Origin: a virus
Direction: 5' to 3' (one strand)
Virus record (IMG/VR): IMGVR_UViG_3300008120_000490
Span: 1 to 29,226 of that record
Length of the DNA stretch: 29,226 nt
The notes beneath the pieces are model-generated. The model did not search any database, had not been told where the DNA came from, and worked only from the letters and a program-made list of their open reading frames with translations. Positions 879 through 26,662 of the stretch are shown here, one piece after another (position 1 is the first letter of the stretch; each line of letters begins with the position of its first letter). A program made the position numbers and the translations under genes.

Positions 879-1256
879 ATGGCTAATTTTGATGATATAA
901 ATGTATTTGGTAATACGTCCTTGTCGGATTTATTTAAACAAATACACAAGAATAATAAAGATATTGATAAGAAGATTGAGGATTTCATTGAAACTATGAA
1001 ACCAATGGCGACAGCTAATGTGGGAAACGCCACAAATTTGATGCCTGTTGTTAAGGATTTAATTGACGTTAATGTAAAAAATAACGAACAATTAGTTAAA
1101 ATGGCAGGTATTGCACAACGTGCTGCAACTACTAATGCTAATAGCGGAGATGAATTAATTAATATGGATGAAATTAATGCTTTATTAGAAGAACAAAAAC
1201 AAGTAGAAGATAATAGTAGGAAATTATTACAACAAGCTCCACAATATCAAGCTTAA
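879..1256 (+). CDS. conserved phage protein, function unknown
   Basis: I chose the ATG at 879, giving 125 residues (MANFDDINVFGNTSLSDLF...). A TTG at 864 is also in frame but would add five residues and overlap the ATATTTAT element. The protein is predicted helical, with charged segments at about residues 17-40 and 95-120, and no signal peptide or membrane segment. An N-terminal INVFG-type start followed by a short helical body is familiar from small proteins beside structural genes in T4-like phages, so a minor virion role is plausible but not shown. It lies between the late sigma gene and the spike-like gene with a 10-base gap to the latter. Confidence 0.7.
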   Translation: MANFDDINVFGNTSLSDLFKQIHKNNKDIDKKIEDFIETMKPMATANVGNATNLMPVVKDLIDVNVKNNEQLVKMAGIAQRAATTNANSGDELINMDEINALLEEQKQVEDNSRKLLQQAPQYQA

Positions 1257-1266
1257 ATAGTCAAAT

Positions 1267-2445
1267 ATGAAGTATAATATAGGTGGATTTTCTAACATTT
1301 TATCTGTACAAGGAAGAAATAATTTTTCTGCTGTTCCTTCTTTACAAGTAGGAAGAGTATATGGTGTGGTAACTACTGAAAATACTCCTAGTGAAAAAAT
1401 GTTTAAAAAAGCAGGAGGTTTTAATGGTGTAGGATCTGTATTTTATCTTGATTATAATTCTTCTAAAAACATTACTGGCACAGGAGACGAATTTTTAGAT
1501 TTATGTAACATTGCTAAACCAATGTTTCCTCAATTTCAGTATTATCCTGTTTTAGGAGAATTAGTAGCAATAATTGATGCACCTTCTTCAAACTCTCAAA
1601 TTTCACTTAACAGTACTGCAGATCAAAAATATTATACTGGTGTTGTTAATTTATGGAATAATAACCAACAAAATTCACAGCCAGCAGATCCTAAAGATAA
1701 TTTAGGGATTACTTTTGTAGAAAATCCTAATATAAGATCTTTATTGTCATTTGAAGGAGATCATATAGTTCAAGGAAGACAAGGTAATGCTCTTCGTTTT
1801 AGTTCAACAACTAAATTGTATAACGATTTAAATGAATGGAGTAGTACTGGAAATGATGATAGTCCTATTACTATATTATCAAATGGATTTGCTTATAATC
1901 CTAAAGAAAAATTCCATGTTGAGAGAATAAATGAAGATGCTTCTTCTATTTATTTAACTTCAACACAACAAATTCCTTTACAAACAGACCGAACTGGAAC
2001 TCTTAATCCACTAACTAAACCAATTGACGCATCTAGATACTTTAATTCTCAGGTTATTATTAACAGTGATAGAGTAGTATTAAATTCTAAACGTGATGAG
2101 GTAATGATTTTTGCTAAATCAAATATTGAGTTAAATACTAAAAATATTATTAATTTAAATGCTAATGAGCGTGTTCATCTTAATAGTAATACGGTTTTTT
2201 TAGGTACTGTAAATAACAGTTTACCAACTGAACCTTTAGTATTAGGTGATAAATTAAATACTTTATTAGAAAATCTACTTGATAGTTTATATAATTTTGG
2301 TAATGCCTTATCATCCGTTGTTGGTTCACCTGAAGGTGCTCCTGCTATAGATATCAATATGGCTGCTGAAGGGTTGTTAAATGATATAGATCGAATTAAT
2401 AATAATCTAGAGGGAATTTTATCACAACAAAACTTTACAGCTTAA
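1267..2445 (+). CDS. putative baseplate hub/spike protein (gp5-like)
   Basis: The 392-residue product starts with a beta-rich region that looks like an OB fold (LQVGRVYGVV at 27-35; YYPVLGELVAIID at 92-104), the type of domain at the N-terminus of phage spike and VgrG proteins. A conserved-looking FEGDHIVQGRQGNALRFSS block follows at 162-180. Residues 262-313 show short alternating strands (VIINSDRVVLNS, NIELNTKNIINLNANERVHL), as in the beta-helix needle of gp5. No lysozyme domain is present, unlike T4 gp5; the GH19 enzyme at 6360 may supply that activity. The C-terminus (about 325-390) is helical. The stop TAA shares a base with the next ATG, indicating coupled translation. Spike function is inferred from fold character and from the neighbouring gp25 and gp6 genes. 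Confidence 0.6.
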   Translation: MKYNIGGFSNILSVQGRNNFSAVPSLQVGRVYGVVTTENTPSEKMFKKAGGFNGVGSVFYLDYNSSKNITGTGDEFLDLCNIAKPMFPQFQYYPVLGELVAIIDAPSSNSQISLNSTADQKYYTGVVNLWNNNQQNSQPADPKDNLGITFVENPNIRSLLSFEGDHIVQGRQGNALRFSSTTKLYNDLNEWSSTGNDDSPITILSNGFAYNPKEKFHVERINEDASSIYLTSTQQIPLQTDRTGTLNPLTKPIDASRYFNSQVIINSDRVVLNSKRDEVMIFAKSNIELNTKNIINLNANERVHLNSNTVFLGTVNNSLPTEPLVLGDKLNTLLENLLDSLYNFGNALSSVVGSPEGAPAIDINMAAEGLLNDIDRINNNLEGILSQQNFTA

Positions 2446-3722
2446 TGGCAAACAACGTAAATGTAGGTGCTGTAGTTTCTCCTGATGTTCTTAAAACAAT
2501 ATCATCATCAGCTGCAATTAAAACTTTTGGAGACCAATTAATTAATAAAGCTAAAGAAAAAGTAATTAAAGCTGCTTTAGGAAAAGCTGAAGAGCTAAAG
2601 AATCAAATTCAAGAAATAGTTACTTTAAAAATTAAACTTGCTTCTGATTATAATACTGAATTAAAACGTTTAGAGGTCTTATTAAAAGAAAAACAGATAA
2701 CTCAAGAGAAGTATGATAAATCTGTTGCAATAGAAAATGCTGCTTATAAAATTAAAGTAAAAGAATTAGAAGAATTAGATGCTAAACTTAAAGAAGATTT
2801 AGCAAAAATAATTGCTGATCCTTATGCTAAAATAAAGGATAAATTAAATAAACGTAGACTTAAAAAGAAAAAAAGAAAAACAAGAAATAAAGCTGAACGA
2901 GCTAAAGCAAGAAGAGCTTTAGCAAAAAAAGTAGCTAAAAATGCTGCTAAAACTTTAGCACCTATTCTTGCATTACAATTAGCTAATAAGTTTGCTGCTG
3001 TTTTATCTCAAAGAGCAAAATTAGAAGAACTAGTAGATCAAGTAAATGCTTATATTGAACAAGCTAATACTCCCGAAACTATTAAAATTGCAACTAATTT
3101 AAGAAATAATGCTGTTACTTTAATTAATAATAGTATTAATAAATTATCTAGTTTACAGCAAATAATTAGACAAATAGAATTATATATAGCAATATTTACA
3201 GCAATAGTAGCTGTACTATCTGCTATCCCAATCCCAACTGCTGTACCTCCTGGTGTTGGTGTTCCTGTAAGTTTAATTACAAGAATTGTTAAATCTTTAA
3301 ATAAAGCAGCCTTATTAATTGTATCTATAAGTGTTGTATCTACTATTGCCGTTAGTATATTAGAAAGTGAAATTGCTCAATTAAATGCATTAATTGAAAG
3401 ATTAAAACAAGTAAGTGATTTATTAGATAATCAAGCCGCAACAAATCTAAATGAACAACAACTCGCTGATTTATCTAATGATTTTCTTCCAACAGGTGGT
3501 GATTTTGGTTTATATAAAGGATTCAAATTTGCTATTAAAGAAGAACAAACATTAGGTGCTCAACAAGCAGTTGTTGTTAAAGGAAATAAACGCCGCTATG
3601 CCGTTGCTATTGATCGTGATGGTGTTGAAGTATTAAAAAGTGATTATTCATTTACACTAGACCCTAACGACTTGGTAGACCAGTTAAAACTAATTATTGA
3701 TCAACGAAATTTACAAGGATAA
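2445..3722 (+). CDS. basic coiled-coil protein with two hydrophobic segments, function unknown
   Basis: This protein has 425 residues. Residues 30-125 form a long charged, coiled-coil-like helix. Residues 134-165 are extremely basic (KRRLKKKKRKTRNKAERAK). Two hydrophobic stretches follow at about 245-268 and 287-307, long enough to cross a membrane and separated by a proline-glycine loop. The C-terminal 80 residues are soluble-looking and contain NKRRYAVAIDRDGVEVLKS. It overlaps the spike gene by one base, so it belongs to the baseplate block. A protein carried in the particle that enters the cell envelope or helps DNA passage would fit these properties, but this is inference. A short tape-measure-like or hub accessory protein is an alternative. 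Confidence 0.6.
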   Translation: MANNVNVGAVVSPDVLKTISSSAAIKTFGDQLINKAKEKVIKAALGKAEELKNQIQEIVTLKIKLASDYNTELKRLEVLLKEKQITQEKYDKSVAIENAAYKIKVKELEELDAKLKEDLAKIIADPYAKIKDKLNKRRLKKKKRKTRNKAERAKARRALAKKVAKNAAKTLAPILALQLANKFAAVLSQRAKLEELVDQVNAYIEQANTPETIKIATNLRNNAVTLINNSINKLSSLQQIIRQIELYIAIFTAIVAVLSAIPIPTAVPPGVGVPVSLITRIVKSLNKAALLIVSISVVSTIAVSILESEIAQLNALIERLKQVSDLLDNQAATNLNEQQLADLSNDFLPTGGDFGLYKGFKFAIKEEQTLGAQQAVVVKGNKRRYAVAIDRDGVEVLKSDYSFTLDPNDLVDQLKLIIDQRNLQG

Positions 3723-3723
3723 A

Positions 3724-3731
3724 ATATTTAT
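3724..3731 (+). promoter_or_regulatory. ATATTTAT element, candidate late promoter
   Basis: ATATTTAT lies four bases before the ATG at 3736, inside a 13-base gap between genes. The short distance would give an almost leaderless transcript if it is a promoter. Confidence 0.3.
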
Positions 3732-3735
3732 AATT

Positions 3736-4095
3736 ATGAACACTAAAGTATTTAAAAAATTAATTAAAGAAGCAGTGATTGATGCTATTCATGAAGAATT
3801 ACCATACATTCTTGAAGAGCACATGGCTAAACAAGAGAAAAAAACATTACGTGAAGGAAAATCATTTAGCTATACTAGCAATGATGTAATACCTGGTAAC
3901 CCAGATGTTAGAGCATCTTTGCGCAGTAAAATGGGTGAAGCTTTTGGATTTCAACAGCCCCAACAACAATTAAAAGTAATTGATGCTGTTGATGAAAGTA
4001 CAGGAGAAAAAGTAAATCCATACTTAGCATTCATAAATGACGCCGCTGCTAATATGACACCAATGGATAGATCAGGATTAAGACAATTAGATTAA
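3736..4095 (+). CDS. small phage protein, function unknown
   Basis: The ATG at 3736 gives 119 residues (MNTKVFKKLIKEAVIDAIHEELPYI...). A TTG at 3697 is in frame but lies inside the preceding gene, so I reject it. Residues 4-30 form an amphipathic helix rich in lysine and glutamate. A linker follows with FSYTSNDVIPGNPDVRASLRS (about 47-67), and the C-terminus NMTPMDRSGLRQLD looks conserved. There is no membrane segment or known motif. It lies one base before the gp25-like gene, within the baseplate block, and may be a baseplate accessory or assembly factor. I do not recognise the family with confidence. Confidence 0.6.
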   Translation: MNTKVFKKLIKEAVIDAIHEELPYILEEHMAKQEKKTLREGKSFSYTSNDVIPGNPDVRASLRSKMGEAFGFQQPQQQLKVIDAVDESTGEKVNPYLAFINDAAANMTPMDRSGLRQLD

Positions 4096-4096
4096 T

Positions 4097-4510
4097 ATGC
4101 CAATACCTCAAACAACACGTGTAAATCCGTTAGATTTACAGAAGAATATTGCTATTGGGGTATCACTACCTTTTAAAAAACCTTTTAAGAGTACATATAC
4201 TACTAAGGATCAAATTAAATCTAATTTAATTAATCTTTTACTTACAGCTAAAGGTGAAAGAGTTTTGAATCCAACTTTTGGGTGTGATATTAAAAGACAG
4301 TTGTTTGAAAATATCACTGAAGAAACACAACAGAATATTATAAATAGTATAGTAGAGGCTGTAAACACATTTATGCCTGAAATACAAATTAATGATATAG
4401 TAGTATCTCCTGATATTGATTTTCATGCTATAAACGTAACAATAGACTACCAAATAATAATATCAAATTCACCAGGACAAGTAACAATACAATTTGAAAC
4501 AATTACATAA
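4097..4510 (+). CDS. 25: baseplate wedge protein, gp25-like
   Basis: The product has 137 residues, the usual size for the gp25/gpW lysozyme-like baseplate family of contractile tails. In T4 gp25 sits in the inner baseplate wedge, contacts gp6 and helps start sheath assembly. The diagnostic block is AKGERVLNPTFGCDIKRQLF at 51-70, matching the family pattern GER(V/I)xxPxFG. It is preceded by a helix (DQIKSNLINLLLTAKGE) and followed by a second helix (EETQQNIINSIVEAVNTF) and a beta hairpin. The next gene, at a two-base gap, is the gp6-like wedge gene, the same pairing as in T4 and related phages. Confidence 0.88.
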   Translation: MPIPQTTRVNPLDLQKNIAIGVSLPFKKPFKSTYTTKDQIKSNLINLLLTAKGERVLNPTFGCDIKRQLFENITEETQQNIINSIVEAVNTFMPEIQINDIVVSPDIDFHAINVTIDYQIIISNSPGQVTIQFETIT

Positions 4511-4512
4511 AA

Positions 4513-6348
4513 ATGGCTAACGAAGATAAAAATATATCATATTTAAATAAAAGTTTTACTGATTTTAAATCGGCATTACAAGAATATGCAAAAACATATT
4601 TCCCAACAACTTACAATGACTTTACAGAAGCAACACCAGGTAATATGTTTATCGAGATGGCTTCCTATGTTGGTGACGTTACTTCATTTTATTTAGATAC
4701 TCAAGTACAAGAAAATTTCTTATTATACGCTAAGGAAAAAGAAAACCTGTATGCTCAAGCATATGTAATGGGTTATCGCCCTAAAGCATCATATGCTTCA
4801 AATACTATAGTTGATGTATATCAAATGGTCCCTTCTGTTTCTAATGATGGAGGAATAAGCACACAACCAGATGTTACAACTTACGGTTTAATCATCCCAG
4901 CAAATACCCCAATAACTTCTACTTCAACAGGTACTAAGTTTTTAACAACTCAACAAATAGATTTTACTAATACAGGTAGTGCAGAGATTACTTTTATGAA
5001 TAGTGATTTTTACTTAATGAAAAAATCAGTTCCTGCAATATCAGCTGAAATTCAAGAAACTACTATTAATATACCAGCAAACCAAAAGTTTGCAACTGCT
5101 GTTATTGAAGATACTAATATATTACAAATATTGAATGTAACGGGAAGTGATGGTAATTTTTGGTATGAAGTTCCTTATTTAGCTCAAACTTCTGTTTTCC
5201 AAAAAATATCAAATCCCGGAGTTAATTCAGATCAAGTACCTTATTTATTACAATTACAAAGAGTTCCTAGACGTTTTGTTTCTAGAATATTATCTGATAA
5301 TACATTACAATTAGAATTTGGTGCAGGTTTATCTACAGATAAAACAGATAGTCAAATTATTCCAACAGCAGGTAATATTGAAGCAGGTTCTGTACCTGGT
5401 ATTTCATTATTAACTAATAATTACAATGAAGCATCTACCTTCTTTACTCAAGAATATGGTTTAGCACCATCAGGTTCGTTAACAATTAAATACTTAACTG
5501 GTGGTGGTATTACATCAAACGTACCAGTAAATGATTTAACTGCTATAGATAAAACAAATATATACTTTAAAAACGGAGACCCAGATGATTCTTTATCTGC
5601 TACTGTTATTAATAGTGTAATATCTTCAAATCCATCCCCATCAACAGGAGGTAGAAATGGAGATACAGTTGAAGAAATTAGACAAAACGCTTTATATTCT
5701 TTTTCAACTCAATTAAGAGCTGTAACTAAAGATGATTATATAGTAAGAACATTAGCTATGCCTGCTGATTACGGTACTGTATCTAAAGCATATATATCTC
5801 AAGATTTATACCAAAACCCACAACAAACAGTAGCACATACACAAAATCATAATCCTTTATCTTTAGATTTATATGTGTTGTCTTATAACAATAATAAACA
5901 ATTAACAACAGGATCTGTAACATTAAAAGAAAATTTAGTAACTTACCTTAATCAATATAGAATGGTTACTGATGCTATTAATATTAAAGATGCTTATTAT
6001 ATTAATATTGGTGTTAATTTTGATATAACTGTATTAAGTGGATATGCTAATAAAGATGTTTTAACTTCTTGTATATCAGTTTTACAAGATCATTTTAATA
6101 TAGACAAATGGCAAATTAACCAACCAATTATTTTGTCTGATGTAACATCTAAATTATTACAAACTAAAGGTGTTCAATCAGTTACTAAATTAGAAGTTGT
6201 AAATAAACAAGGAGGAAATTATTCACAATATGGATATGATATTGCGGGTGCAACTAAGAACGGTAATATTTATCCTTCATTAGATCCTGCTATATTTGAA
6301 GTTAGATTCCCTAACACAGATATACAAGGTAGAGTAGTAGTAAGTTAA
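4513..6348 (+). CDS. 6: baseplate wedge protein, gp6-like (gpJ family)
   Basis: The 611-residue product is close in length to T4 gp6. The N-terminus has the characteristic helix-rich start: residues around 10-100 include YFPTTYNDFTEATPGNMFIE, MASYVGDVTSFYLDTQVQEN and AYVMGYRPKASYAS, the last close to the ALGYxP motif of baseplate J proteins. A beta-rich middle follows, then the segment around 385-420 (GDTVEEIRQNALYSFSTQLR, AVTKDDYIVRTLAMP), which is also typical of gpJ/gp6. In the baseplate gp6 forms the ring that joins the six wedges and changes shape on contraction. It directly follows the gp25-like gene. Confidence 0.88.
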   Translation: MANEDKNISYLNKSFTDFKSALQEYAKTYFPTTYNDFTEATPGNMFIEMASYVGDVTSFYLDTQVQENFLLYAKEKENLYAQAYVMGYRPKASYASNTIVDVYQMVPSVSNDGGISTQPDVTTYGLIIPANTPITSTSTGTKFLTTQQIDFTNTGSAEITFMNSDFYLMKKSVPAISAEIQETTINIPANQKFATAVIEDTNILQILNVTGSDGNFWYEVPYLAQTSVFQKISNPGVNSDQVPYLLQLQRVPRRFVSRILSDNTLQLEFGAGLSTDKTDSQIIPTAGNIEAGSVPGISLLTNNYNEASTFFTQEYGLAPSGSLTIKYLTGGGITSNVPVNDLTAIDKTNIYFKNGDPDDSLSATVINSVISSNPSPSTGGRNGDTVEEIRQNALYSFSTQLRAVTKDDYIVRTLAMPADYGTVSKAYISQDLYQNPQQTVAHTQNHNPLSLDLYVLSYNNNKQLTTGSVTLKENLVTYLNQYRMVTDAINIKDAYYINIGVNFDITVLSGYANKDVLTSCISVLQDHFNIDKWQINQPIILSDVTSKLLQTKGVQSVTKLEVVNKQGGNYSQYGYDIAGATKNGNIYPSLDPAIFEVRFPNTDIQGRVVVS

Positions 6349-14553: not shown

Positions 14554-15972
14554 ATGTCGGCGTTCAAAAAACTAAGCAAATCAGACGTTACGGTCGTACC
14601 GTATGCCGCTAACAAGCAGTGGAACTTAAACCAGTGCTCGTATCCGACATCTTCAGAGTATTTTACAATTTATAAAGGAACTAATTTAACAGATAGTTTT
14701 AATGCCGATACTGACCCTGTTACTGAAGGTCAATATGAAAGACTAGTTTATAATCAAATTAATCATTTATTCTACCAAACATATTCAGCTAGTTTAAATA
14801 CTAGCTCATTAATGTTTACGTTAGATAATTATGAGTCTGCTTCCCAACAACGCCCAACTGCATCTTATTTTATATATAATGATAATGCTAATTTAATTAA
14901 GAATTTTCCAACAGGATCTAATGCTAGTATTAGAGTAATAGCAATTAATCAAGATATATACGGTAATAAAATATTACCAAATACCTTTGTTTTAACTTCA
15001 TCTATATACAGTATTAAAGATGATGGTTTTGGTAATCTTTACTATTATGATTATTACCATGTAGGAAATATATTTTATGCCCATGGTTTAGCAATAATCA
15101 CAGATCCTCTTTTTCAAGGAATATTCCCACTTCCTACATTAACTAAACCAGCAACATTTACTTTTTATAATAATACTATAAATTCAAGTAGTATTGCTAG
15201 TTACATAGATAGTAGAGATACTACTGTTGATTATTCAACATTAATATTATCTGGAAGTCCTTATATTATTCAAAGTGGAAGTACAAATAATATTATTTTA
15301 AATACAACCACTCCTGGAACTTATGAAACATATTATAGCATATATGGTACAATAACAGGTAGTTGTGGAAATGTACTTAGTAATAAAGCTAAAATAACAA
15401 TTAAGTTACTTAAATCTATTGATTGTAAATTTGCAACTTCTGCTTCTTCTGTAAATGTTGGATGTAATTTCCAATTAATTGCTTCAACAACACCATTTAC
15501 TCCAATAGCAACACCAACTCCTACACCAACACCAACTCCGACTCCAACACCAACTCCGACTCCAACCCCAACCCCAACCCCAACTCCAACCCCTACCCCT
15601 ACTCCAACACCAACACTAACACTACCTCCATCACCAACTCCAACTCCAACTCCAACCCCTACTCCAACACCTACACCTACACCAACACCAACACCTACAC
15701 CTACACCAACAGGTACACCTACTCCGACACCTACACCAACTCCAACTCCAACTCCGACTCCAACACCTACACCAATATGTACTTTAGTGGGTGAAATTAC
15801 TTTATTAAATTGTAATTTAACGGGTAATATTTCTTTAAATATTCCAACTCCTACACCAACCCCTACACCAACAGGTACACCAACTCCGACTCCAACTCCA
15901 ACTCCAACACCTACCCCTACACCAACACCAATATGTACTTTAGTAGGCAATATTAGTTTAATAACACCTTAA
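14554..15972 (+). CDS. adhesin-like protein with two Thr-Pro hinge arrays
   Basis: 472 residues. Residues 1-315 are a beta-rich Ser/Tyr-rich domain. A long TPTP array follows (320-407), broken by TLTLPPS and TGT. A short module begins [13 protein letters not shown], then comes a second TPTP array (431-459), and the protein ends with a cut-down copy of the module ([13 protein letters not shown]). The repeat of module plus array suggests growth by duplication, or a worn-down remnant of a longer protein. The first 35 codons use more TCG, GCG, GTC and CCG than the rest. No signal peptide is present. It opens the Thr-Pro locus, directly after the 328-residue structural gene. A host-surface-binding fibre is the likely role. 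Confidence 0.65.
15511..15774 (+). repeat. Thr-Pro hexanucleotide array 1 (in gene 14554)
   Basis: Six-base repeat of pattern ACN CCN read as Thr-Pro, with mixed third bases and breaks at TLTLPPS and TGT. It is a coding hinge and not a satellite between genes. Confidence 0.9.
15844..15930 (+). repeat. Thr-Pro hexanucleotide array 2 (in gene 14554)
   Basis: Shorter ACN CCN array with one TGT break. It is flanked on both sides by copies of the ICTLVG module. Confidence 0.9.
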
Positions 15973-17754: not shown

Positions 17755-18582
17755 GTGAGAATAAACGGTTATTTAGTAACATGGGATGATTTAGCCTTAA
17801 TGGGCACTCTAATTAATCCATCCAATCCAGCTCCTACTGGTAATAAAATTGTTACTAAAGCTGAAGGATTAACTTATTATAATTTCCAAACATCTCCTTT
17901 AGAAGCATATGCTTCAAATCAATGTCCTCCTTATGAGGCTTGGGTAGCTATAGTAAGTACACCAACACCAACACCAACATCAACCCCAACAGCTACTCCA
18001 ACCCCAACACCAACTCCAACCCCAACCGTAGCAACACCAACCCCTACAGTAACTCCAACACCAACACCAACTCCTACTGTTGCAACTCCAACTCCAGCAG
18101 CAACCCCAACACCAACGCCAACGCCTACACCAACACCTACTCCAACTGTAGCTACTCCAACTCCAACGGCAACTCCGACGCCAACACCTACACCAACTGT
18201 AGCAACTCCGACGCCAACGGCAACCCCTACACCAACAGCAACACCTACTGAAGCAACTCCAACCCCAACACCTACCCCTACACCAACACCTACACCAACA
18301 CCTACACCAACACCTACTGAAGTAACCCCAACACCAACTCCAACTCCAACCCCTACTCCTACCCCAACAGAAGCAACGAAGCAACTCCGACGCCAACTCC
18401 AACACCTACTGAGGCAACTCCGACGCCAACTCCAACTCCAACCCCTACACCAACACCTACTGAAGCAACTCCAACACCAACTCCAACCCCTACTCCTACC
18501 CCAACACCAACTCCAACCCCAACACCTACCCCTACACCAACTCCTACACCAACACCTACACCAGTTGCATCAGCCTCATTAG
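17755..18582 (+). CDS. adhesin-like protein, N-terminal part, frame broken in the hinge
   Basis: From a GTG at 17755 the reading frame gives 275 residues. The first 68 form a head ([37 protein letters not shown]) unlike the heads of the other Thr-Pro proteins. A long hinge decorated with VATPTP, EATPTP and TATP units follows. After 18377 the frame is lost: residues change from EATPTP to [11 protein letters not shown] and stop at 18582. The cause is an 8-base tandem duplication at 18370-18385. Removing one copy restores the hinge and joins this part to the open frame that runs to 20084, a 773-residue protein. The head and hinge are convincing; the out-of-frame last 70 residues are an artefact of the shift. 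A GTG start is unusual here; the next in-frame ATG (17800) would cut into the head. Confidence 0.6.
17959..18563 (+). repeat. Thr-Pro hexanucleotide array 4, the longest, with V/E-A insertions
   Basis: About 600 bases of ACN CCN repeats interrupted at irregular intervals by GTA GCA, GAA GCA or GCA units, giving VATP, EATP and TATP at the protein level. Sub-blocks repeat at a longer scale, so it has grown by copying of blocks as well as single hexamers. It holds the frameshifting duplication. Confidence 0.9.
18370..18385 (+). repeat. 8-base tandem duplication (GAAGCAAC twice) causing a frameshift
   Basis: GAAGCAAC at 18370-18377 is directly repeated at 18378-18385. One copy reads Glu-Ala-Thr in the hinge, as at other EATP sites. 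Two copies shift the frame by two bases. Reads or culture would show whether it is real. Confidence 0.85.
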
Positions 18583-20084
18583 CAATTCATTTAGAAGAAT
18601 ATAATGCATCTCCAACATTCTTAGATGCTAATATTAGAGTAAATGGAACTTGGTATTATTTCTCAGGTGACTTTACAACCAATGTTAATGGTGATACACT
18701 TGATACTATTCAATTAGAAGCTGCTGAAGCAACCCCTTCTAATTTCTGGGGATCTTATACAACAGGAAGTGCTAAGTTATTAGTATATGAAAATGGTACT
18801 TTAATACATAATAATACTAATACTTACTATAGTGGTAGTGGTAATCAAATATTTAATCAAGCTGTAACTTATAGTGCAGGTAAATCATATGTAATTTCAG
18901 GTTCTACTTCACCAAAATTAAGTTGTTATAATGTATCTCTATTAGATTATGTAACAGGAGAGTGTTATTCATTCCCTAATGAATATGAAGATCTTCAAAC
19001 AGTTACTGTTACTTTAGATGCTCCTGCATTTACTGATATTAGAGTATCGGGTTCATTAACTAATGGTACTCCATTTGATACTACAATCCCCGCTGGATTT
19101 ACTGATATTATATTATGGAATGCTACTTGTGGATGTGGTACACCTTGTTTAACTGGAAACGGTGTAGCTGAAATTTGGGTAACATCAAATGAAGGAACAG
19201 TTTCAATTCCTAGTTGTGGACCTGTAATAAATGCATTCCAAGCTTTATTCCCAACTCAAAGCTTATTTTTAACAGCTATATCTTATAATTGTGTAACACC
19301 AAGTATAAGATTTAATTTCACAGGTGGTGTAGCTCCATATTCTGCAAGTATATCTAGAGATTCTAATGGTAATCCAATTTGGTCATATACTAATATCACT
19401 ACAACTCCATTTGATGCTACATCAGTACCATCAGGACAAATTTATTATCCTGCTATTAAAGATGCTACTGGTACAATTGTTGAAGGATCTCCAATAACTG
19501 ATTGTGCTACATTAGATGCAACATTTAAAATAGATAATTCATTAAATCCTTTAGCAACAGGTAATATTTTTTATCCTGCTATACTCGTTTCAGGATCTCA
19601 AAATAGAGGAACAAGCTTTAGAATAACAGGTAGCAGAAATACACAAGTTAGTGTTACTGCTGTGGTGGGTAGTGGTACAACATTCTTAGGATGGTCATTT
19701 GTTTCTAGTAGTAAAGCAAGTATATTTGAAACAGCTAATACTATTCAAATTCCATTAACAAATACAGGTAGTATATATTATGCTATAATTGATAGAAATG
19801 TAGTTTCTGCTTCATTCTGTTATTATAATGCAGATCCAATAGGAACAACAGCTTGTGATGCTTGTGCTGTTACTAAAACTATTTATTATAATGGTAATTT
19901 ATTAACAGGTTCTAATTATGCTGGTTTAACTTGGTTTAAAGATGTTAACTTAACAACCACAGCTGATGAGGGATATTACAAACTAAACACAATATTAGGT
20001 TCACCAATATATCAAGTATCTGCAGGACCAACACAAACTAAAACATTAACTGGATATTGTACAGACGTAATTTTAACATGCTAA
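18378..20084 (+). pseudogene. adhesin-like protein, C-terminal part of the 17755 gene (out of frame)
   Basis: From the second duplicate copy onward a frame reads [10 protein letters not shown] and then a long beta-rich region (starting [20 protein letters not shown] at 18564) to the stop at 20084, about 570 residues. Codon by codon I found no ATG, GTG or TTG in this frame from 18564 until GTG at 19662, so it could not start on its own and must continue the 17755 frame. Features include CGCGTPCL at about 19129-19152, VAPYSASISRDSNGNPIW, and a final portion with CDACAVTKTIYYNGNLL at 19854-19904 and ending CTDVILTC. It may be inactive in this genome copy, or the shift may be an assembly error. 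A short product from GTG 19662 (140 residues) is possible but unlikely to be meaningful. Confidence 0.6.
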
Positions 20085-20102: not shown

Positions 20103-23100
20103 ATGCCACTTAATAATTCAGCAACCATATCATTTTCATCATCGAATTTCACTTCTAGCGGACCTATAGGTGCGGATATCGCTGCTCAAACATTAGGTTT
20201 AGGTAATATCAACAATTATAAGTGGGCTAATAAAAGTAGACAAATTGATTTAGGTAATACTAACTATGGTTATATAACTTTAGATATTAGCTACACAGTC
20301 ACAGGAACCGCAGATGTAGTAGCTGTTTCTTTATATAATACTGATAGTATAGTTTCATATTCAACAACATTAAGTGGTCTTTTTACACCACCTTTTGCAG
20401 GAAGCTATATAAAATTACAACCAGGACAAACCACAAGATTGTATGCTATCGTTAATAGTGGAATTAATATCTCTCAATATGTTCCTATCAGTTTTATTGT
20501 GGGAAGAAGAGGTACATTACCTTCAAATGTAACAATAACTTTGGGATATAATTGTACTGATGTAGGTTCTTTGTATAAGTATTTAGTAGATATGCATGCT
20601 TATTCTGCATATGATGCTGCTAATAACGCTAAACTTAAAACCTATCTATATTCAGCAACCCCAATAGGATCTTGGACTACAAATACAGAAGTATATGCTG
20701 CTCCTAACTTTACTCAGTATGCCTTTCCTTATTATTATTCTTATGGTAGTAATACTTATAAAATTGGCGGTGATTTAGAAAGATCTTTTGGTATTCAGAG
20801 ATATGTTGAACTTTATAAAGCAAATGCTTTTCCTTGGACTAAAGTAAAAATCAACCAAAAAGAATCAGAAGTTAAATCTTGGAGGGGAATTGATCTTGAT
20901 GGGTATGTAATGCCAAATTTTGTTTATCCTTATATGTCAAATGCAGGAAAAGTTAAACAAGTATTAACTTCTTCTACTTTAACTCAACCTTCTTCATATA
21001 GATATTATTTAGGTGCTGCTTCTACAGCCCAATCAGCTGCTGATTATTTTACTCAATTTGATTTTGGTAATAGATTAGTACATACTATTACTGGATTTCA
21101 ACATGCTCTACAACATTTATCTGCTGGATTTTTATTAGCAAGTGGAGTAAAATTAAAATCAGATCAACAATTTTTAGAAAATATTCTTATTGCTGCTGGA
21201 GCTGCTTTTTTAAATTGGTGGAATCCAAAAGTTTGGGCAGTATTTGGTAGTGCAAAAGAAGTTATTAGAAATATAGTATTCAATATATGGAAATTAATTA
21301 ATGGTTCTGAATTTTTAAAACTTAGTGGTGGTGGATATACAGGATTTTCTCTTAACTTTTTAGGTCTTTCATTAGGAGTATGGATATTAATTATTGAAAT
21401 TGCAATTATTATATATAAGTTATTACAACCAATAAAAATTCCTGTTTATGAACCTACTATAAATTTAAAATATAGATATGCAAATACTCCCTATCTAAAT
21501 AATGGAACCACTTTATATACAAATACGGATTTAACCACATCAAAATCAGAATATTATTGTGACGGTATATATTTTTATAACCAATCATCAAGTATTTCTA
21601 TATCAAATAAAGAATTATCTTATACTTTAAATGGATTAATAAATAATGATCCTATACAAAAAGGAGTATCATATTCAATTCCTGTAGACACAGGAGACAC
21701 AGGTTCTATAGTTTATGATTTCATGAAACTATTGGCTCTCCCATATTGCTCAGGAAAACCAGATGCAATAAGTGGTACATATAAAAATGTAGCCCAATTC
21801 GTTACTTTTACTCCTTTAAATACTTGTGGAGATTTATTAGAATTTCCTTCAACAGTTACTATTACAATTCCTGAAGGAACTATTATATCAACTGTTTCTC
21901 AAGCAGAAGCTAATGCTGAAGCTTTAGCTTACGCTAATTCAATAACAGCTTCTAGTGCTGCTTCTGCAAGTTATGGTACAATTCATCCAAGTGCAAGTGG
22001 TGCTTTATTTACTTTTACTCATGAAATTAAATTAGAAACTTATCCTAATACGGGAAGTTGTTTCTTTAGTGATACAAACAATGCTGGTTTAACTGTAGGA
22101 AAATCTTTATATTATGATCCTAGTGGAACTAAAAAAGTACTTAACGGATACTATACTGTACCATCAGGATCTCTTAATGGATATTCGTCTTATAGAACAT
22201 TCTTTAAAACAATAAGTGGCTCTGTATCTGATGTTCTAACAATGGCTTCTTCAGGAGATACTACAGTAACTTCTCTTGTAAATTCAGCTACATATACTAT
22301 TCAAACTTCAAATCAAGGATACTCTAGTGATTGGTATTGGTATGACATATCATATAGTGAATTAAATGATAGTATTTCTTATCCTCTAACACCATGTCTT
22401 GATCTTAATACTTTATATAATGATAGTCGTTTAAAAGCTGGATTTAGTTTACCTGATACTTCTTCACTTTATACTTATAACTCTAATACCAGTACAGCAA
22501 GTTATTCCGAAGCAACCCCAGGATGGTATTATGCTTTTGATGTATATGAATATCCTTATCCTTTTGCGTATAGTACACCAGTTACATTATCAATTAATTT
22601 AACTGAAGTTTGCTTTACAGATTATTCTGTAGGCCAACCTTATGGAATTAATATAAGCGGAGCAAGCGGATCAGCTTCATCTTCATTATATTATCCTGTT
22701 AATATGACATTATTAGCTTCTACAGATGATCCAGAAACAGCAGGATATATTATACACGCAACAGCATCAGCTGAAGGTATTACTTATGTTCCTTATCCAA
22801 GTGGAATTACTAAAGATACTAATGTTACTAATGTAACAATACAATCTATTAATTCTCCAAATCCAAATAATAAAATATTATATGTAGCTGGTTCATTTAC
22901 TAACTGTAATCCTAATGTTCCAACCCCTACTCCAACACCTACTCCAACACCTACTCCAACACCTACACCGACACCAACTCCAACACCGACACCAACTCCA
23001 ACCCCTACTCCAACCCCAACACCAGTTTCTGTTGCAGGATATGTTAGCTTAATAGATGAAATATCAGCTTGTGCTGGTGGTGAATATAATAATGTTACTA

Positions 23101-24707
23101 TATCTGTTATGGGCACCACATTATGTAATGCCACTTCAATTACAGGATTATCTTCAGATCCTTTTGGTAATGTATTTGCTGATATGACTACTGGTCAAGA
23201 ATTTTATGTTAGTGATGGAACAAATAGTAGAACATTCTTAAGAAATGGAACTCAAAATAATGCAACAACAGTTAATTCTTGTACCGCATGTCCAACCCCA
23301 ACCCCAACTCCAACCCCAACCCCTACTCCTACTGCTCCAACTCCAACTCCAACCCCAACTCCAACACCAACTCCTACACCAACCCCACCATTAATTAGCG
23401 CATACTTCTTTACAACAGAACCTTCAGGTTATTTAGCTTGTGATGGAGGAACATTAATATCAGTTCAATTAAGTGCTTTAACATTATGTGAAAGCAACAC
23501 ATATACAAGTAACTACTTTACTACGTTAGGAACAACAACATATTGGTTAGCATATGATGGTAATTATGTAAAAATATTCCATAGTGGTACTAGCAATCAA
23601 GCAACAAGAGCTGAAGCTTGTAAAACATGTAATAATGTAGCACCAACCCCTACACCTACTCCAACCCCAACTCCTACACCAACTCCAACTCCGACTCCGA
23701 CTCCAACTCCTACTCCAACACCAACCCCTACTCCAACTCCAACACCTATTCCATTTACTGCTTATATAAGTAATGCAAGTGGTGAAGATGCTTGTAATGG
23801 TGGATTTGGTGAATACTCATTCACAGGAAATGGAACAGGAATATGTGATAGTACTACAGTAAATGCTTCTATAATTGCTGAAGAAATTACATTAGGTGGT
23901 GATTTTTGGTTATCTAATGGAACTAATAGTAGATACTATCAGAGAAGAAGTACACCAATCAATACAACAACAGGTTTAGCTCAAGAAGCTTGTGCTGCTT
24001 GTCCTACTCCTACTCCGACACCAACACCTACACCAACACCAACACCTACACCAACACCAACTCCAACTCCGACTCCAACACCAACCCCAACTCCGACACC
24101 TACACCTACTCCGACACCTACACCTACTCCAACCCCTACACCAACCCCTACTCCTGTATTTGGTGGATTAATTCAATATTCAACTATATCTTCACAATAT
24201 GTTTGTATAAATGGAGGAAGTAGTATTTTTGCAACAGGTAATGAGATTGATTTCTGTTCATCTAATATTCTTTATGCTAGTGGATTTACAAGTTTAGGTA
24301 CAGGTACCTTCTATATTACTAATGGAGGAAATGTTTCTACTTACTATCATAACTCAGGTGCTAATTCAATGTCAAGAATTCAATCATGTACTGCTTGTTC
24401 TTCATTCCCAACACCTACTCCTACACCAACCCCAACTCCAACACCAACACCTACACCTACTCCAACACCAACACCATCAGATTGTGTTTGCTGGACATTC
24501 TTTAATGAAAATAGCTTAAGTGGAGTTGTATATTATGATGGATGTGGTATAGGATCTACTAGTGCTGTAGTAAGTGCAGGTCAATATAGATTTAGATGTG
24601 TAACATTAGGTGATACACCTTATACATTTGATGAGGCAATGACAATATATGAATGTGGATTGCCGAGCAGTTGTACAATAAATACTGAATGTAACGGATG
24701 TTCTTAA
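20103..24707 (+). CDS. giant modular adhesin-like fibre protein (1534 residues) with five Thr-Pro hinges
   Basis: Residues 1-935 form a long beta-rich body, with one strongly hydrophobic helix-like stretch at about 419-442 ([18 protein letters not shown]) unusual for a fibre. From residue 940 the protein is a string of five Thr-Pro hinges separated by small modules. Four modules (975-1063, 1097-1180, 1216-1300, 1352-1435) are related: each is about 85 residues with four cysteines in the order C.GG, a single C after a hydrophobic residue, and C..C just before or near the next hinge. The last domain (1459-1534) is also cysteine-rich (CVCWTFFNE...CNGCS) but different. This beads-on-a-string form suggests several binding heads on one fibre. 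Function as a receptor-binding protein is inferred. Confidence 0.72.
22920..23024 (+). repeat. Thr-Pro hexanucleotide array 5 (hinge a of gene 20103)
   Basis: ACN CCN coding array separating the N-terminal body from the first four-cysteine module. Confidence 0.9.
23292..23390 (+). repeat. Thr-Pro hexanucleotide array 6 (hinge b of gene 20103)
   Basis: ACN CCN array with one alanine replacement (TAPTP). It lies between modules one and two. Confidence 0.9.
23643..23747 (+). repeat. Thr-Pro hexanucleotide array 7 (hinge c of gene 20103)
   Basis: Uninterrupted ACN CCN array between modules two and three. Confidence 0.9.
24003..24155 (+). repeat. Thr-Pro hexanucleotide array 8 (hinge d of gene 20103)
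   Basis: The longest hinge in this gene, between modules three and four, uninterrupted. Confidence 0.9.
24408..24476 (+). repeat. Thr-Pro hexanucleotide array 9 (hinge e of gene 20103)
   Basis: The shortest hinge, before the different C-terminal cysteine-rich domain. Confidence 0.9.
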
Positions 24708-24961: not shown

Positions 24962-25786
24962 ATGGCATTTTCATACAACATAAAAATAGTTCCAGCTACA
25001 GGATCAGAAGCACCTCTAAGTACAAGTACTTACAGTGTGTATTATGATCAAATTAAACCTAGCAATTTACTTAGCGGAAGTATTGCTCAAACTAGTTTAT
25101 TATCTAATTTTGTTATTAGTAATATTCCTGATAACGCTGTTTCGTTAATTGTAAAAAGTGATGATCCTGATTGTTGTTGTGATGCACAATCGTATAGATT
25201 CCCAACCCCAACCCCTACACCTACTCCAACACCTACACCTACTCCAACCCCAACTCCAACCCCGACACCTACACCTACTCCAACCCCTACACCTACACCT
25301 ACACCTACTACTCCAACTCCAACCCCTACACCAACAACACCAACCCCGACACCAACCCCGACACCTACACCAATTTATACAATTACTTTAACTAACCCAG
25401 GATCAGGTAATAATTCAAGCTATCAATTAGGTGGAGATTTTAATACTGGTGATACAGTTGTAATAAGAGCTGTATTTTCTGGTACAGGAGGAAATGCAGT
25501 TAATTTTGAGGGTAGAGCTGATTTAACTTTATCTAATGATGCAACAAGTAGTAGTATTCAATCTTCTTGTTTCCCTGTAGGAACTCCAATGGGTTGGAAT
25601 TTACAAAGAGAAATTACTTTTAGTTATAATACTATTAACTCTGTGATAAGTACAATAGCAGTAGTAAATAACGGTAGCACCAGTGCTAGTGGACTTACTG
25701 TATCTATAGTAAGTGTAAATGGAATTGCTGTTACAGCAAATAACGCAAACGGTAATAAGGGTAATAGTGGAGGTTCTGTTTGCTAA
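24962..25786 (+). CDS. adhesin-like protein: head domain, Thr-Pro hinge, tail domain
   Basis: 274 residues. Residues 1-80 are a small beta domain ending in [11 protein letters not shown] just before the hinge; the same CCC mark stands before the hinge in the 25805 protein, and the fold pattern resembles the head of the 16033 protein. Residues 81-137 are the hinge, with two TTP breaks. Residues 138-274 are a glycine- and serine-rich beta domain ([50 protein letters not shown]) ending GNSGGSVC. The tail shares no clear similarity with the other tails in the locus. Probably a short fibre or decoration protein. Confidence 0.65.
25202..25372 (+). repeat. Thr-Pro hexanucleotide array 10 (in gene 24962)
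   Basis: ACN CCN array with two extra threonine codons (TTP) that leave the frame intact. Confidence 0.9.
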
Positions 25787-25804: not shown

Positions 25805-26662
25805 ATGGCTAAAAAACAAATAACAATCAGATCCACCTCAGGTACGACTTCAGGTCCCTTTAGTATATATCATTCGTCTATACTAAGTGACAATCTACTT
25901 GAAGAAAATATAACATCTGGTAGTTTAGCAGCAGGTAAGACATATCGTGTAGATAGAGCTATCGAGGAAATAATAATAGTAAACACAAATAGTGATTGTT
26001 GTTGTAGTGTTGAAAAAATAAATTTATATGCAACTCCAACACCTACCCCTACTCCAACCCCTACACCTACTCCAACACCAACACCAACCCCCACCCCAAC
26101 ACCTACCCCTACTCCAACCCCTACACCTACACCTACACCAACCCCTACACCAACTCCAACACCGACACCTACACCAACACCAACCCCAACTCCAACACCA
26201 ACCCCAACTGAGACTCCAACACCGACACCAACTGATACTCCAACAGCTACACCAACTGCAACACCTACACCTACACCAACACCAACACCGACTCCAACTC
26301 CTACACCAACTGAGACTCCAACACCTACAGTAACTTATTTCTACTATTCAGTTAGAAAATTTGATTGTAATAATTTCTGTACTCAAGTAACACCTGATGT
26401 AGTAGGTAGATCAAGTACAGCATTATCAACATCTAATGGATTATATTATAAAGTAGGGTCATTTACTTACCAACTACAAACTGAAGTGTTAGGGCCAACA
26501 TATGATGTTAATTTAGATGGTGCTCCTTCAAATTCTGACTGTGCAACGGCTTGTACAACTAATTATACATGTCCTTCTGTTCCTGGTTCTTGTTATGCTA
26601 CATTAGCAGAATGTGAAGCAGCAGGTTGTATAAATTGTGCTCAAACAGTATGTGCTCCATAA
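25805..26662 (+). CDS. adhesin-like protein: head domain, Thr-Pro hinge, cysteine-rich tail
   Basis: 285 residues. The head (1-76) contains [11 protein letters not shown] (15-25) and [10 protein letters not shown] (62-71), matching the heads of 16033 (DTGPFDLY) and 24962 (PDCCCD). The hinge (77-175) is long and decorated with ETPTP, DTPTA and TATP units, like array 4. The tail (176-285) starts [16 protein letters not shown], has [15 protein letters not shown] and SDCATACTT, and ends with a cysteine-dense stretch ([20 protein letters not shown]). The order of strands and cysteines in its first half recalls the four modules of the giant fibre, though distantly. The cysteines may form disulfides or bind metal. 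Confidence 0.66.
26033..26329 (+). repeat. Thr-Pro hexanucleotide array 11 (in gene 25805)
   Basis: About 300 bases of ACN CCN repeats. The second half contains ETP, DTP and TAT units. Confidence 0.9.

Follow-up and report, generated by a model that had tools for sequence, protein, structure and literature searches.

Four-cysteine modules on proline-threonine linkers are exchanged among unrelated phage tail proteins

A giant protein of the tail gene cluster analysed here carries four copies (M1–M4) of one small four-cysteine module, strung on Pro-Thr linkers, and single modules of this family have been exchanged between phages and between tail proteins whose bodies are unrelated. The sequence, hereafter the window, is a complete IMG/VR record of 29,226 bases. 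We consider it likely that M1–M4 are plug-in adhesion modules, probably locked by disulfides and mounted on Pro-Thr spacers, that belong to a pool common to several phage types.

The modules occupy residues 975–1435 of the 1534-residue protein at ~85 aa each and are separated by (PT)n linkers of 32–51 residues (Table 1). The four modules noted in the initial annotation are real, and their borders match the region it gave (23025–24407) exactly. Its C.GG motif holds for M1–M3; M4 instead has CINGG, and in the wider family the same position also reads CDNGS, CSSPQG and similar. The order C...C...[FY][WY][VLI]..(D/N)G...C..C is present in 4/4 modules.

Table 1. Coordinates of the giant protein, its modules and linkers, and the tail of a neighbouring gene in the window
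Feature	Positions	Strand	Support or remarks
Giant tail-cluster protein, 1534 aa, module carrier	20103..24707	+	single ORF; after baseplate wedge genes and S74-chaperone fibre gene
N-terminal body, ~938 aa, DUF5977 at residues 560–617	20103..22916	+	
(PT)n linker 1	22917..23024	+	6-nt repeat unit
Module M1, cysteines at module residues 16, 34, 86, 89	23025..23291	+	pairwise shuffles, profile, AlphaFold2 (mean pLDDT 96.1, pTM 0.86)
(PT)n linker 2	23292..23387	+	6-nt repeat unit
Module M2	23388..23642	+	pairwise shuffles, profile, AlphaFold2 (mean pLDDT 93.5, pTM 0.82)
(PT)n linker 3	23643..23747	+	6-nt repeat unit
Module M3	23748..24002	+	pairwise shuffles, profile
(PT)n linker 4	24003..24155	+	6-nt repeat unit
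Module M4, C..GG in place of C.GG	24156..24407	+	pairwise shuffles, profile
(PT)n linker 5	24408..24476	+	6-nt repeat unit
C-terminal eight-cysteine module, different family	24477..24704	+	also in L010, L029, L036
Tail of gene 25805, 'YFYY' module family	26324..26584	+	not M1–M4 family

Pairwise local BLOSUM62 scores among M1–M4 were 47–122, with z values of 3.5–15 against free shuffles and 2.9–13 against shuffles that kept the cysteines in place. In five of the six pairs none of 500 shuffles reached the real score, and the M2–M3 pair gave 1/500 and 5/500. A profile built from relatives recovered each of the four modules at about 1e-19 or better. These tests, together with the structural models described below, establish M1–M4 as one homologous family on linkers in a large tail protein, as had been proposed from the window alone.

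Viral contigs were scanned with the fibre, with the anchor domain of its neighbours and with sub-alignments of the modules, and the loci retrieved in this way were then searched with iterated profiles; an alignment of all eight copies, also tried as a scan query, proved too diverged. The family comprises ~37 distinct copies on ~20 IMG/VR contigs, 33 of them detected at about 1e-14 or better and four then added by the contigs L077 and L078. M1–M4 and their relatives have in common C1, C2, a terminal C3..C4 and, between C2 and C3, a [FY][WY][VLI] strand. Across the 30 rows of an alignment, no full-length copy lacked C1 or C4 (the L039 row is truncated by its contig end), and C2 and C3 were retained in all copies but one (L021, residues 1117–1206), in which both were lost and two other cysteines gained. 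Because C2 and C3 disappeared together, the alignment suggests that they pair with each other, and C1 and C4 probably form the second disulfide. Positions F/Y60, W/Y61, V/L/I62, R69 and a basic residue at 73 (R/H/K73) were also well conserved.

The earlier statement that the module belongs to no named family was upheld, as no Pfam, NCBIfam or PHROG model matched it. No match to the modules was found among PDB sequences, and tblastn with the modules against 50,697 phage records gave none even at E 10, possibly a limit of sensitivity. No copy of the module turned up in two scans covering 84,980 bacterial and archaeal genomes, and a prophage or host origin is therefore unsupported. Two known families were considered and rejected. 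M2-type modules match the Phage Tail Collar domain (PF07484) at E 0.002–0.004, and one string in them resembles 'GWLLCDG'-like collar motifs; however, the score of 17.4 bits is below the 24-bit gathering cut-off and the match covers 31 residues in 3/8 members. The ELWxxDGT repeat (TIGR04534) matched one of 8 members at 0.0044, with no significant match across the family.

AlphaFold2 models of M1 and M2, the two copies tested, were confident (Table 1). Although the two sequences are only ~22–25% identical, their models have an identical order of elements, predicted to be mainly beta (strand-strand-strand-helix-strand-strand-strand, with the helix between the third and fourth strands), and the idea that the modules might be unrelated folds fails for this pair. 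Foldseek found no relative in the PDB (best TM 0.39 for M1 and 0.42 for M2, E values above 0.8, in the range 0.8–1.2), a search whose sensitivity is limited by the small size of the domains, and neither model matched a known lectin or carbohydrate-binding fold. Against viral models there was one good match, A0A6J7WGP7, an uncharacterised protein of 721 aa from an uncultured Caudovirales phage (BFVD; E 2.6e-4, probability 1.00, TM 0.75 over M1, 27% identity), which, judged by its model, is probably the same module in another phage. Because Foldseek is weak on domains so small, we regard a new fold as possible on the basis of the models.

The modules had been thought to be kept as a set. This was contradicted by the comparison of whole-fibre relatives (seven that could be read through and one fragment): each of the seven has a string of its own, and the nearest kin of each of M1–M4 lies in another phage. 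The N-terminal body of the window protein is 45–60% identical to those of its relatives. Compared with L009, the bodies agree at 45% of amino acids and 60% of nucleotides, whereas M1 agrees at 90% and 92% and M2 at 86% and 87%, respectively. At fourfold sites the two were identical in 93/180 cases for the body and in 58/67 for the modules (p 3e-7); since these sites agree more in the modules than in the body, the modules of these two phages derive from recent common DNA, beyond what constraint would account for. L010 and L020 gave the same picture (181/268 vs 41/42, p 1e-5). Along the genome, the window and L009 remain distant until the body ends and are close at M1 and beyond, except where they carry other modules. 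The converse was seen in L009 and L024, whose bodies are 93% identical in both protein and DNA, whereas their modules and linker style differ.

Exchange extends beyond fibres of the window type (type A). Three other kinds of tail protein carry the module: type B, fibres belonging to large phages (in records as long as 217 kb, with up to 3 copies each in different genes); type C, proteins of 1500–2000 aa (L036, L067, L078); and type D, a protein of 1600 aa (L077) whose gene adjoins an apparent tape measure gene. Module 2 of L020 matches a B-type copy (L032) at 91% of amino acids and 90% of nucleotides, and module 1 of L024 is 85–86% (aa) and 88% (nt) identical to the C- and D-type copies in L078 and L077. 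Among types A, B, C and D, then, modules at 85–91% amino acid identity sit on unrelated bodies, which is well above the identity of at least 50% by which a common domain on unrelated bodies is recognised as mosaic. In the module tree, different body types are intermingled at well-supported nodes, and five changes are required for type A even if only the starred branches are counted. DNA identity is high within modules and drops within 15–45 bases outside most of them, and also at the end of the body; in L077/L078 the linker and part of the preceding module travelled along. These data show homology and exchange of the modules. In L077, four-cysteine modules and a two-cysteine module of the YTD type form a long C-terminal extension of the tail protein (881–5680); this protein is encoded beside the probable tape measure gene, and the plan is thus not confined to myovirus-like fibres.

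The linkers are hexanucleotide arrays, and since their 6-nt units are in frame, joints, crossovers, slippage and length changes all stay in frame. Each phage largely has its own repeat style, with PT used by the window and L009, PTTA by L010, L022 and L024, PTAT by L020, and PTNT or PTQT by L021 and L025. Among the phages that share modules (the window, L009, L010 and L020–L025), it differs from phage to phage and is largely uniform across the different genes of any one phage. This uniformity within a phage, with differences between phages sharing modules, hints at homogenisation of linkers within a genome, and the linkers may serve as seeds for recombination. Extended Pro/Thr-rich spacers also join folded modules in cellulases (as linkers) and in IgA (as the hinge). 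The modules of those proteins are unrelated to the ones described here, whose linker repeat style, by contrast, is largely phage-specific.

Since all breaks fall at short hexanucleotide repeats and each string of the window-type fibre was seen once, in one contig, the shuffling could in principle reflect metagenome assembly, with collapse at the low-complexity linkers. We regard such an artefact as highly improbable: modules of L010 and L020 are 93% identical and yet sit in different linker styles, B and C arrangements recur identically across independent samples (L029/L031/L040, L034/L035, L036/L037/L038), and the shared modules differ by 5–15% between phages and are thus not read-level chimeras. 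A frame change elsewhere in the window could be either an assembly error or a real break. The large gene at 17755–20084 seems to be split within a Pro-Thr linker near 18370, where there is an imperfect GAAGCAAC duplication; in L010 the corresponding linker reads openly, and the start of the gene lies off the contig.

Close copies of the module are mostly under purifying selection, with dN/dS mostly at 0.05–0.35; the two pairs that diverged most recently gave 0.50 and 0.89. Substitution frequencies were 9.3% in predicted strands and helices and 11.4% in loops (p 0.34), and a loop-focused diversification of surfaces was accordingly rejected. The proposal that module surfaces had changed for different specificities is weakened by both results; the modules are conserved parts that get moved, with no visible diversifying selection on their surfaces. 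The same module is repeated within one fibre in L021, L022, L024 and L077 (dS 0.72 and dN 0.038 for the repeats in L022), which suggests avidity, and the four different modules of the window suggest mixed targets.

It might be argued that the modules bind nothing and act passively, as spacers or rigid knots determining how long and how soluble the fibre is, their turnover being neutral repeat expansion and recombination. The free variation in number and type of modules along the strings, the absence of loop-focused change and the lack of a known binding fold would be compatible with this. However, linkers alone would suffice for spacing, and the mostly purifying selection, the conserved aromatic and basic positions (F/Y60, W/Y61, R69 and R/H/K73) and the fact that the same subtypes have repeatedly become fixed in unrelated tail proteins all speak against it, and we consider the passive role unlikely.

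The genomic setting bears on what this function may be. Located 5' of the giant gene are genes for gp25 (PF04965), a baseplate wedge protein (PHROGs 10646 and 219), a GH19 enzyme and an S74-chaperone fibre. The closest cultured relative of the wedge gene is in Flavobacterium phage immuto (45% identity), where the corresponding stretch contains genes annotated as tail fibre and tail spike. The 1534-residue protein is very probably a tail fibre or a similar appendage; this assignment comes from gene position, because besides low-complexity matches its body matches only DUF5977. By the same argument from position, the modules may bind a receptor. Location among the tail fibre genes agrees with receptor binding as well as it does with non-receptor adhesins, which would keep the phage attached to particles, biofilm matrix or mucus while a separate protein determines host specificity. 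The latter role, for which multivalent repeats suited to weak matrix binding and the presence of one module type in phages of differing body type and genome size, whose hosts may differ, can be cited, appears to us somewhat improbable.

We therefore return to the reading as plug-in adhesion modules. The beads, small domains of ~80–92 aa, would be interchangeable adhesion heads, carried by stiff and extended Pro-Thr spacers where the C-terminal end of a tail protein points outward. Recombination with crossovers in the linkers would allow beads to be gained, lost, duplicated and swapped, and one fibre could display several different heads, as with M1–M4, or one head repeatedly. The result would be multivalent and changeable attachment to host surface polymers. 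In this scheme, the disulfides, the outward display, the binding to the host surface and the nature of the target are what we infer. More tentatively, a previously undescribed fold may act as a common-currency adhesin in several lineages, with Pro-Thr coding repeats maintained as in-frame joints for exchanging single heads.

Other modules in these loci are built on related plans. The first half of the gene 25805 tail had been put forward as a possible further member of the M1–M4 family, and it is not one (hhalign probability 0.7%, shuffle p > 0.2). It belongs to the 'YFYY' family (YFYY...C..C), which in L009, L010, L020, L022 and L024 takes the last position of the giant fibre or one close to it, is followed in some relatives by a short Y.C...C...C tail, and has moved between genes. 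The eight-cysteine C-terminal module (motif C.CWT..NE...) takes the first string position in L010 and is found in other tail proteins of L029, L036, L039 and L052; like a YDVY module, it is common to several body types. Profile-profile comparison of the four-cysteine modules with the two-cysteine, YFYY and YTD modules gave probabilities of 0.7–1.6%, which were not significant. The neighbouring genes at 24962–25204 and 25805–26032 have a common N-terminal anchor domain ending in DCCC, a Pro-Thr linker and unrelated tails, and form a set of short fibres on one plan. Strands of 10–20 residues resembling mini-modules occur between linkers at 14554–15972, in L036 (109–6312) and in L078 (5–4702), and include CDFDVDLTIITSTPTP, repeated many times.

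Mosaic tail fibres and spikes are known in which C-terminal parts are common to otherwise unrelated proteins at identities of at least 50% while the N-terminal part is conserved, and such mosaicism is believed to alter the range of hosts (Smug et al. 2023, PMC10684548). In the present case the unit exchanged is one small four-cysteine family whose members are arrayed in tandem along Pro-Thr linkers; neither 'disulfide' nor 'linker' occurs as a word in the main text of that study. In the part of the literature covered, no description was found of PTPTPT phage fibres or of the module family. The family, its confident but unmatched model and the circulation of single beads through four unrelated tail proteins appear to be new. 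Swapping of tail fibres is known and usually involves whole C-terminal tips, whereas here it is a single module of ~85 aa. Its profile offers a way of finding such fibres in metagenomes, the module is a natural template for modular binding proteins, and, being small and expressible, it lends itself to studies of what determines adsorption in uncultured phages.
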